DNA of 64,000 bases. It comes from Myxococcus eversor (GTDB taxonomy: Bacteria; Myxococcota; Myxococcia; Myxococcales; Myxococcaceae). Below are positions 39,117-41,799 of this stretch, in pieces; within the stretch, counting starts at the first letter, position 1, and every line of letters starts with the position of its first letter. Under the pieces are notes generated by a model. It was not told the origin of the DNA. It did not search any database and saw only the letters and a program-made list of their open reading frames with translations. Location: assembly GCF_010894455.1 (NCBI RefSeq), contig NZ_JAAIXY010000006.1, positions 310,001 to 374,000 of the forward strand, written 5' to 3'. The translations under genes and the position numbers were made by a program.

Positions 39117-39641
39117 CTACGGCTGCTGGGCGTCCTGCTTCAGCTTCTCCACCGCCGCCAGGGTGATGGACTTCACCAGCGCCCTCGCCCGCCGCCCCGC
39201 CGCCGTTTCACCGTGCGGGTCCACCTCCACCGCGTTGGACAAGTCCGTGAAGCCCTGCCGCTCCCCCTTGCGCAGGTACAGCTCCCCCCGATTCGCCAGC
39301 GCCACCGGATGACCGGCATCCCTCGCCAGCGCCGCGCTGTACTCCGCGATGGCTTCCTCCAGCCTCCCGAGCTTCTGGTACACGGTGCCCAGCGCCGCGT
39401 GAGCCCCCGCGTCCCTCGGGTTCCCCACCACCAGTCCCTCGAAGAGGATGCGCGCCTCCTCCAGCCGCCCCGCCGCCGCCAGGTCACATCCCACCTGCGC
39501 AATCGCCTTCGCCTCTTCGAAGGTCATCCCCTCCACCTCCGCCCACGTCGCCTCCCCCCTCGCGAAGGACCGCATCCGCTGCACCGCTCCGCTCTCCATC
39601 CGCATCGCCACTGCCGCCTCGTGTTTGATGACGCGTCCCAT
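39117..39641 (-). CDS. TPR protein, type III secretion chaperone-like
   Basis: A 174-residue protein with three tetratricopeptide repeats (EEAKAIAQVGCDLAAAGRLEEA, AGAHAALGTVYQKLGRLEEAIA, VALANRGELYLRKGE). Its size, lack of signal peptide and its place seven bases after a NolX/HrpF-like gene match class II type III secretion chaperones of the LcrH/SycD type, which hold translocator proteins in the cytosol. The TPR assignment is plain; the chaperone role is inferred from context. Confidence 0.72.
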   Translation of the reverse strand: MGRVIKHEAAVAMRMESGAVQRMRSFARGEATWAEVEGMTFEEAKAIAQVGCDLAAAGRLEEARILFEGLVVGNPRDAGAHAALGTVYQKLGRLEEAIAEYSAALARDAGHPVALANRGELYLRKGERQGFTDLSNAVEVDPHGETAAGRRARALVKSITLAAVEKLKQDAQQP

Positions 39642-39648
39642 GGGCCCC

Positions 39649-41136
39649 TCAGGCGCCGCGCAGGTTGGAGATGGCCGTCTTCGCCATCTCGTTGAACTTC
39701 GCCGACATGTTGCTCATCAGGTCGAACATGGATTTGCGCTTCTCCAAGAGCCGCTGAAGCCGCAGCTCCAGCTCGCGCATGTTCCCGTCCAGCGTCGCGG
39801 CCTTCTTCTTGTCGGCGTCCGACGTGCCCAGCGCCGCGCGGTCCTCCCCAGCGCTCGCCATGCTGTCCATGACCTGCAGAATCTCCGCGTCCGTCTCCGT
39901 GGAGATGGCGCCGAGGATGGCCTGCACCTTGTCCTCGATGCTCATGTTCGGGTTGTCGACGATGGAGCGCGCGCTCGACACCTTCGTCGGCGACGTGCCC
40001 GGCTTTCCGCCCCCCGACAACTCCAGCTCCGCCTTCACGTCCAGCCACCCGATGATGCCGTCGCGGCCGTCGATGCCCGCCGCCATCTCCAGCCGGTCGA
40101 AGTACTCCGGGTGGTCCTTGAAGAACTGCGCGGCCTTCTTCAGCGTCGAGGACGCCGCGGGATTCGCCAGCAGCGCCGCCATGTCCTCGCGCGTGACGCG
40201 GTCATCCTTCGTTCCCGCCGCCGTGTCGAACGTGCCCCAGTTGTCGCGCAGCACCGCCACCGCATCCAGGTACTCGCGAAAGTCCGGGTCCTTCGACGTG
40301 GGCGGCTTGCCACCGCCACCCACGGGGCCCTGCCCGCCCCCCGTCCCCGTCCCCGGCGTCGGCCCCGTGCCCGGCGTGGGCGGACGCGGACCCGGTGAAG
40401 GAGTGCCCGGTGAAGGAGTGCCCGGCGACGGACCTCCCGTGGAGGGAGGACGCGTGCCCGGCGTCCCCGTCGAGGGCGGACACGTCTCCGCCTCGGGCTT
40501 CGGAGTCCGCGGACGCTCCGGCCGGCCGTAGCGAGCGAACTCCTCGCCCACGCGCTTCAGCTCGGAGCGCACTCCCGACAACTTGATGCGGTCGTCGTTG
40601 TACAGCTTCCCCACCACCGGCATGAACCGCGCGAGCAGCCCGCTCGAGTCCACCCGCTCGAACAGCGCGGCGTTCTCCGTCAGGAAGCGGGCCGCGCTCC
40701 GCAACTGCGGGGACAGGCTCATGTCATTGGCCGCGCGCCGCAGCTCCTCCTTCGACAGCGAGCCCGACTTCTTCCCATCCGCGAGGTCCAGCTGGTCGAA
40801 GTTCGCCTCGAGCACCTTCAGCGCGGCCTCGTAGTCCAGCATCTTCGGGTCCAACGCGCTGGTGCCGGTGGGAAGGATGGGCGCATAGCCCTCCGTCTTC
40901 GCCGCGCCACTCGCTGCCGCGTACTCCGTCTTCGCCGCCGGATTCTTCTTCAGGTCCTCCGCCACCCCCACCGCGCCGCTCGCCGCCAGCAACACGTTGC
41001 CCGTCGCCACACCCTCCACCGTCTTGATGGAGTGAGAGATGAGGGGCGTCATCCCCCGCGTGTCACCCGCGCCCTCCACCGCCGTGCCCTCGGGGCTGGC
41101 CAGCAGGTTCGTCGCGCCCTTCAGAAAGTCCACCAT
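39649..41136 (-). CDS. NolX/HrpF-like type III translocator-related protein
   Basis: A 495-residue protein with two copies of the NolX/HrpF repeat. Copy 1 (about 80-165): ALKVLEANFDQLD, KKSGSLSKEELRRAAND, LRSAARFLTENAALFERVD. Copy 2 (about 285-375): AVAVLRDNWGTFDTAAG, DDRVTREDMAALLANP, LKKAAQFFKDHPEYFDRLE, IDGRDGIIGWLDV. Each has an EF-hand-like acidic loop. Between them lies a Pro/Gly/Thr linker with SPGTPSPGTPSPG repeats. The C-terminus is a long amphipathic helix (SMFDLMSNMSAKFNEMAKTA) like those of secreted translocators. No signal peptide. GGAGGG ribosome-binding site before ATG 41136. No other type III genes are in the window. Confidence 0.72.
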   Translation of the reverse strand: MVDFLKGATNLLASPEGTAVEGAGDTRGMTPLISHSIKTVEGVATGNVLLAASGAVGVAEDLKKNPAAKTEYAAASGAAKTEGYAPILPTGTSALDPKMLDYEAALKVLEANFDQLDLADGKKSGSLSKEELRRAANDMSLSPQLRSAARFLTENAALFERVDSSGLLARFMPVVGKLYNDDRIKLSGVRSELKRVGEEFARYGRPERPRTPKPEAETCPPSTGTPGTRPPSTGGPSPGTPSPGTPSPGPRPPTPGTGPTPGTGTGGGQGPVGGGGKPPTSKDPDFREYLDAVAVLRDNWGTFDTAAGTKDDRVTREDMAALLANPAASSTLKKAAQFFKDHPEYFDRLEMAAGIDGRDGIIGWLDVKAELELSGGGKPGTSPTKVSSARSIVDNPNMSIEDKVQAILGAISTETDAEILQVMDSMASAGEDRAALGTSDADKKKAATLDGNMRELELRLQRLLEKRKSMFDLMSNMSAKFNEMAKTAISNLRGA

Positions 41137-41328
41137 GAGCCCTCCCGCGCGGCGTGTTGGAAGCAGTGCCGCGCGATGGGCAGAGGGGGTTGCAGCGGGG
41201 ATGCCGCCCGGCGGCTCGGATGGCGTCGCAGCGAATTCCGTCGGTTAGCCTGACTGACAGGCGAGGCGCGTCCCCGACGTCGGACGGAGCGGTCCGCGAC
41301 GAAGGATGCGGTTAAGGTCCGGCGGCAC

Positions 41329-41799
41329 ATGCGCACCTTCGGTTTGGACTACGGAACCAAGACCATCGGCGTGGCCGTCTCGGATGGCCTGGGCCTCACC
41401 GCCCAGGGCGTCACCACCATCCGACGGACCTCGCTCAAGGCGGACCTCGCCGTGCTCGGCGCCCTGGCGCGCGAGCACGAGGTGGACCGCATGGTCATCG
41501 GACTGCCGCTCAACATGGACGGCTCCGAGGGCCCGCGCGCGGAGGCCTCGCGCAAGTTCGCGGACGCGGTGACGCAGGCGCTCGGCGTCCAGGTGGAGCT
41601 GTTGGACGAGCGGCTGTCCACCGTGGCCGCCACCCGCACGCTCCTGGAAGCGGACGTCAGCCGCGCCCGCCGCAAGGAGGTCATCGACCAGGTGGCCGCG
41701 CAGTTCATCCTCCAGGGGTGGCTGGACGCCCGCCGGCCCCCTGACACGGCGATGCACGCGGATGACTACGACGACTACGACTCGGAGCCGTCGGAGTGA
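41329..41799 (+). CDS. ruvX: Putative pre-16S rRNA nuclease / Holliday junction resolvase-like YqgF
   Basis: A 156-residue RNase H-fold nuclease of the YqgF/RuvX family, needed for maturation of the 16S rRNA 5' end in Escherichia coli. The active-site Asp7 is in FGLDYGTKTIGVAVSD, the MVIGLPLNMDGSEG loop follows and LLDERLSTVAA supplies the second acidic residue. The C-terminal extension DDYDDYDSEPSE is acidic. Its stop overlaps the start of mltG (GTGA). Confidence 0.92.
   Translation: MRTFGLDYGTKTIGVAVSDGLGLTAQGVTTIRRTSLKADLAVLGALAREHEVDRMVIGLPLNMDGSEGPRAEASRKFADAVTQALGVQVELLDERLSTVAATRTLLEADVSRARRKEVIDQVAAQFILQGWLDARRPPDTAMHADDYDDYDSEPSE

Follow-up and report, generated by a model that had tools for sequence, protein, structure and literature searches.

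What might a NolX/HrpF-like protein and an adjoining tetratricopeptide repeat (TPR) protein do in a bacterial predator whose type III secretion systems (T3SSs) have neither needle nor translocon according to their published descriptions? The question is raised by two genes, here called P1 and P2, in a 64-kb window (G000:C91:310001-374000; the whole stretch of DNA analysed) of a Myxococcus genome of 11.4 Mb. P1 (495 amino acids) and P2 (174 amino acids) are open reading frames (ORFs) that both start with ATG, lie on the minus strand with a spacing of 7 bp (39642-39648), and form a two-gene operon. Based on profile comparisons, P1 is probably an exported tip or translocator part in which HrpF-like repeats are joined to a needle-like tail, with P2 as its chaperone, and export would most likely proceed via the short type III system of the same genome.

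NolX/HrpF-like repeats of P1

An earlier note on this DNA had described P1 as a translocator-like protein with two NolX/HrpF repeats. The two repeats align with each other at 26% over 93 amino acids (E 1e-9, pairwise test), and EF-hand models match P1 weakly (E 0.015-0.19). In a profile search with PF05819 (NolX), the likeness is weak in P1 and becomes clear across its homologues, three of which exceed the curated cut-off, namely L016 and L018, with 27.2 and 27.3 bits, and the ruvX-linked homologue L106, which scores 47.7 bits in three stretches. The NolX model is matched by 14 of the 15 close homologues of P1 (best E 3.2e-7), and PF16937, the HrpK1/HrpF translocator model, is matched by seven of the 15 (best 2.1e-5). 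In the whole genome, the NolX model finds one match only, which is located at P1 (E 0.28). As judged from these profiles, the NolX/HrpF similarity of P1 is real at the family level and suggestive in P1 itself.

Hydropathy revealed no convincing transmembrane (TM) segment in P1, the N-terminal region included. HrpF possesses repeats of ~110 amino acids, two of them in X. euvesicatoria, and is without a predicted TM helix (PMC5483457); the layout of P1 is likened to that of HrpF because it has two repeats and no predicted TM helix. The putative translocators HrpF, PopF, and NolX (PF05819, PF16937) of plant-associated bacteria, to which P1 aligns in the repeat part only, are thus similar to P1 in the ~110-residue repeats, the absence of a predicted TM helix, and the type III context. 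In contrast to these proteins, P1 has a needle-like tail and an adjoining LcrH-type gene, and its host preys on bacteria.

The needle-like tail and the type III loci

Of the two type III loci in the genome, the long one lies on contig C31 and the short one on contig C91, 215 kb from the window on the same contig. From their gene content, the locus on C31 is read here as T3SS*, the long locus, and that on C91 as the short locus of Abby and Rocha, who described long and short myxobacterial loci, the short one in all Cystobacterineae and both without SctF and translocon (PMC3459982).

The 108-residue tail is the best conserved part of P1 in alignments of homologues. It is present in 115 of 195 Myxococcota genomes at E<=1e-3, the weakest of them being doubtful, and distant tails close with a motif resembling SN......HEM...AI.N[ILM]R at the C-terminus or 1-2 residues from the end. 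A tail profile (A6) from which all needle candidates had been excluded gave exactly four matches at E<=10 in the six frames of the 11.4-Mb genome. One is P1 (1.8e-22), and the other three are genes within the type III loci: the short-locus head gene (2.1e-6; C91, 142 kb), the first needle-like gene of T3SS* (4.4e-6; C31, 169 kb), and a 71-aa gene of T3SS* (0.042; C31, 186 kb). With a leave-out tail profile, the candidates reach 6e-10 to 3e-5 among 892 ORFs, the next ORF standing at 2.3. Furthermore, hhalign matches the P1-type tails to the short-locus head family at 97.4% (E 9e-12) with exact C-terminal registration, compared with 0.5% or less for eleven other alignments of genes from type III loci used as a control. 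By these comparisons, the C-terminal helix of P1 and the needle-like genes in both type III loci of the genome are homologous. The helix that the earlier note had called amphipathic is not merely that; it constitutes a needle-like tail common to genes in both loci.

The relation of this tail to known needles is traced in two steps. A profile of the needle candidates gives 7y6c_F, PrgI, and MxiH as its top PDB matches (E 1e-4 to 0.02), of which 7y6c_F is the needle peptide in a needle-chaperone complex. PF09392 is matched in seven of the 11 members of this profile, and its four matches in the genome are all located in T3SS* or the short locus. The 71-aa T3SS* gene and the distant tail protein L105 match PF09392 below the cut-off (7e-4 and 6.5e-4, respectively), and the short-locus head gene matches the HrpA pilin model weakly, also below the cut-off (0.002). 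P1 itself gives no match to PF09392, and its tail, as far as these profiles indicate, is connected with known needles only by way of the myxobacterial candidates. SctI is directly preceded by the needle-like head gene in each of the 16 short loci with the head covered, as in L102. P1 shares with SctF needles (PrgI, MxiH, and PscF; PF09392) and HrpA pilins a C-terminal helix that finishes with I-x-N-[LMI]-R at the extreme C-terminus and a TPR-type chaperone gene close by; on the other hand, SctF comprises ~80 amino acids, whereas P1 is a 495-residue protein with large N-terminal domains. The word "needle-less", applied to the apparatus in the earlier note, is doubtful, as both loci encode needle-like subunits.

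Two further arrangements of such genes were observed. Five near-identical needle-like genes (76-88 aa) occupy ~5 kb of one T3SS* locus (L112:8572-13819), on the strand opposite SctV. In the family f17 (L091, L092, L093, and L128), several tail-protein paralogues per genome have in common a middle region of approximately GGRI..DG..DG.L....F.PG, and no LcrH-like gene directly adjoins the tail-protein genes in L091-L093.

P2 and the two-gene unit

The best NCBIfam match of P2 is LcrH_SycD (TIGR02552; E 5e-15, 55.4 bits, residues 29-155), which bears out the earlier description of the gene next to P1 as a three-repeat TPR protein of LcrH size. In a genome-wide scan with the LcrH model, three genes of the T3SS* locus rank first and P2 fourth, and a T3SS* gene of the same genome passes TIGR02552 with 108.6 bits. 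P2 possesses the LcrH/SycD traits of TPR repeats, a size of ~160-175 amino acids, and a cargo-adjoining gene, and in these respects and in the aligned region it is similar to the class II chaperones LcrH, SycD, and PcrH; it also resembles generic TPR proteins. A TPR gene adjoins 65 of the 70 tail-protein copies read (many of them close relatives, with some genomes counted twice) and 15 of the 20 distant tail loci. P2 is predicted to be the LcrH/SycD-type chaperone of P1. Its likeness to SctE-SctF-SctG (PscE-PscF-PscG) would consist in a TPR protein holding a needle-type C-terminal helix; no SctE-like partner turned up, none having been searched for, and by model score P2 is closer to LcrH than to SctG.

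A comparable pair is embedded in type III loci. T3SS* of the source genome opens (G000:C31:168411-169499; L150:8412-9500) with two genes, a needle-like one (187 aa) and then an LcrH-like TPR gene (144 aa), downstream of which lie genes for a FliA-type sigma factor, SctI, and SctJ. Within the T3SS*-type operons of G016 and G018 (L110 and L111), SctV is directly preceded by genes for a tail protein of the P1 family and a TPR protein like P2. Because of these occurrences, the pair of a needle-tailed protein and a TPR protein is counted as a two-gene type III unit.

Conserved position and promoter-like site

In Myxococcus-type genomes, P1 is divergent to ruvX, usually ~200 bp apart, and this arrangement recurs more widely, in several further families within the order and in one within the class, Anaeromyxobacter-like genomes included. 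The nearest relatives of the pair occur in M. qinghaiensis and other Myxococcus, and the pair is kept in 20 loci of Myxococcaceae-type genomes. The earlier note had taken it for possible cargo encoded away from the type III locus; the pair is indeed remote, but it has not strayed there recently, its position at ruvX being common to several families. A recent move of P1-P2 out of T3SS* was also considered and is rejected in view of the ruvX linkage common to lineages without T3SS*.

A sigma-54-like element, GGCA-N6-CTGC, is located 69 nt upstream of the P1 start codon and is the only match in the window. It is found upstream of 20 of 28 P1 homologues (17 of 17 close and 3 of 11 distant ones), and a sigma-54-dependent operon with a promoter-like GG-N10-GC -24/-12 element is predicted. 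No promoter element common to P1-P2 and the two type III operons of the genome was found. Near-consensus sigma-54 sites (GGCACG-N4-GTTGC) are present only in three Anaeromyxobacter-like short operons (L141, L142, and L143), 25-74 nt before the needle-like head gene, and a site of this kind was not found at the Myxococcus short operon.

Which apparatus P1-P2 may serve

SctV types were compared in a panel of 50 genomes. Ten genomes with the tail are without a T3SS*-type SctV (G060, G111, G140, G141, G031, G032, G033, G036, G040, and G042), and all ten have the short-type SctV, while no tail was seen in the four genomes with the T3SS* type only, G143-G145 and G072 (79% complete). The presence of P1-P2 thus matches that of the short type III locus more closely than that of T3SS*, the predation system. 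Among the 195 genomes, SctV/FlhA occurs in 111 of 115 tail genomes versus 51 of 80 others, as raw counts that ignore phylogeny and include flagellar FlhA. No LcrH-type TPR gene was found inside the short loci read. Since the tail follows short-type SctV and those loci are without such a TPR gene, P1-P2 is assigned to the short system, which it most likely complements in the simplest reading, with T3SS* as a possible additional client; the embedded pairs of G016 and G018 indicate that such units serve T3SS*-type machines too. NolX similarity and a type III apparatus in the genome, on which the earlier note had made its reading depend, were both found, although the pair follows the short locus better than the prey-killing apparatus that it had named.

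An overlapping explanation, differing only in the machine served, is that P1 is made for the predation T3SS* and acts together with the Kil pilus when prey is contacted. T3SS* is required for prey lysis (PMC12075869), and the related tail and TPR genes in the T3SS*-type operons of two other genomes, together with the four LcrH-type TPR genes and two needle-like genes in the T3SS* locus of the source genome, are consistent with this assignment. The SctV distribution points the other way in both directions, from tail genomes without T3SS* and from T3SS*-only genomes without the tail, and the ruvX-linked pair is present in lineages without T3SS*, which makes this explanation unlikely. Myxococcus T3SS* (MXAN_2434-2464) and the short myxobacterial non-flagellar T3SS share homologous tails with P1 within the same genome, and T3SS* has TPR genes as well; unlike the genes of either locus, P1-P2 is encoded elsewhere, beside ruvX.

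Proposed mechanism and its alternatives

The operon, the family-wide NolX/HrpK1 similarity, the tail homology, the TPR adjacency, the conserved position, and the promoter-like site are computed results, and the secretion of P1, P1-P2 binding, assembly, filament formation, the exporting apparatus, and the function outside are inferred. In the proposed mechanism, sigma-54 RNA polymerase would transcribe the P1-P2 operon. P2 may then clasp the C-terminal needle-like helix of P1 in the cytoplasm, preventing too-early assembly; this role is proposed by analogy with PscG, a TPR chaperone that encloses the C-terminal end of PscF, a needle subunit (PMC3084799). Next, P2 could deliver P1 to the SctV export gate for export through one of the myxobacterial type III systems, with the short one as the most likely exporter and T3SS* as a possible further one. 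Outside the inner membrane, the P1 tail may dock on or co-assemble with the needle-like subunit heading the short operon, and the two NolX/HrpF-type repeats could be displayed as a tip or translocator-like element.

Several observations weigh against this assignment. P1 alone scores only 14.2 bits with PF05819 (E 0.025), compared with the curated cut-off of 26.1. The short-locus head family gives only weak PF09392/HrpA matches and, when searched alone against the PDB, matches no needle structure. Compared directly with solved needles, P1-type tails give no significant match (7y6c_F, E 0.058), and these tails spuriously match the influenza HA2 coil (6e-4), outranking the needle structures; helix composition can therefore mislead. 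Unlike LcrH, SycD, and PcrH, P2 falls into a clade of its own, and its score lies far below the TIGR02552 equivalog cut-off of 104.8 bits; because it reaches only about half of this value, P2 is not filed as an LcrH equivalog. PxLxxP, a motif known from LcrH cargoes, is absent from P1 and its homologues. The TPR proteins inside T3SS* operons fall outside the P2 clade in the tree, and their orthology with P2 is unsupported by the tree, although P2 is their best BLAST match. Finally, no P1 tail could be detected in several genomes that possess both systems, perhaps through divergence or broken assemblies.

P1 might alternatively be a type III effector that acts in or on prey, the tail being a chaperone-binding and export signal only and not part of a structural tip or translocator. 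Effectors are commonly encoded in an operon with their own chaperone, away from the apparatus, as P1 is. The N-terminal part of P1, which has no TM segment, differs strongly between lineages while the tail persists, as could be expected of an effector. However, P1 is a single-copy gene found in 27 of 27 sampled genomes of the genus, unlike typical variable effectors, its NolX/HrpK1 similarity points to translocators, and its tail is homologous to apparatus-type subunits, so that an effector role seems quite improbable. That P1 and P2 are a helical protein and its cytoplasmic TPR partner, unrelated to secretion and like type III parts by chance, is very hard to credit: the single-protein scores of P1 and P2 are weak, the HA2 match shows that chance helix matches occur, and P2 is also similar to generic TPR proteins, but the tail profile is specific for type III loci genome-wide, its C-terminal registration is exact with negative hhalign controls, P1-family pairs are embedded in T3SS operons, and the tail is associated with SctV/FlhA.

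Implications

If P1 is an exported needle-tailed tip or translocator part, its architecture would be new, in that translocator-type repeats are carried on a tail of filament type. The single parts all belong to known kinds, and what is new is their combination: repeats of translocator type joined to a tail of needle type, plus an LcrH-type partner, within a system that has been called needleless. A wider proposal, for which the balance falls slightly short of even, is that both "needleless" myxobacterial loci encode SctF/HrpA-like filament subunits and that the ruvX-linked P1-P2 adds to them a chaperone and its client, an HrpF-like tip or translocator subunit with a needle-type tail, the predators thereby building a type III filament that meets other bacteria. 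Needle-family subunits in myxobacterial systems would, if true, contradict their stated absence (PMC3459982, PMC10433427, PMC12075869). Published work leaves open by what means Myxococcus T3SS* could deliver anything when it has no needle or translocon (PMC10433427, PMC12075869). A model that derives injectisomes from flagella includes, as one of its steps, the presumed disappearance of SctF from the myxobacterial systems (PMC3459982). The named candidate set of three needle-like genes, P1, and the TPR partners makes both questions directly testable. In a literature search mostly without subscription papers, no paper naming NolX with M. xanthus was found, and SctF in M. xanthus was found only in Abby and Rocha.

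Features of the locus and further T3SS* genes

The features of the P1-P2 locus are summarized in Table 1.

Table 1. Features of the P1-P2 locus (window coordinates).
Feature	Position	Strand	Basis
P1, needle-tailed NolX/HrpF-like protein, predicted type III substrate	39649..41136	-	ORF; NolX/HrpK1 matches in homologues; sole NolX match in genome
P1 NolX-like repeat 1, ~aa 95-206, with EF-hand-like loop at aa 115-137	40519..40854	-	Pfam NolX aa 120-165, EF-hand_5 aa 115-134; self-alignment with repeat 2
P1 Pro/Thr/Gly-rich linker between repeats, ~aa 207-281, length varying among homologues	40294..40518	-	Alignment of homologues
P1 NolX-like repeat 2, ~aa 282-377	40006..40293	-	Self-alignment; HrpK1 model matches same region in homologues
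P1 conserved C-terminal tail, aa 388-495; needle-like core ~aa 458-493	39652..39975	-	Alignment; tail profile; hhalign
P2, TPR protein, predicted LcrH/SycD-type chaperone of P1	39117..39641	-	NCBIfam LcrH_SycD; TPR gene adjoins 65/70 tail-protein copies
Sigma-54-like -24/-12 element GGCA-N6-CTGC (GG-N10-GC)	41192..41205	-	Upstream of P1 homologues
ruvX, divergent neighbour, positional marker of locus	41329..41799	+	PF03652 RuvX, E 2.4e-45

Two other features of the T3SS* locus were noted. Directly after SctV (G000:C31:189406-191126; L003:19407-20000 and L004:1-1127), a 379-aa DUF1521 protein containing GDPHVD, a sequence seen in self-cleaving NopE1-type type III substrates, is followed by an LcrH-like gene, and the two are likely a second substrate-chaperone pair of T3SS*. 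In addition, a 93-aa duplicate of the SctU/FlhB C-terminal domain is encoded directly after SctU (G000:C31:183532-183813; L003:13533-13814) and is kept in other T3SS* loci.
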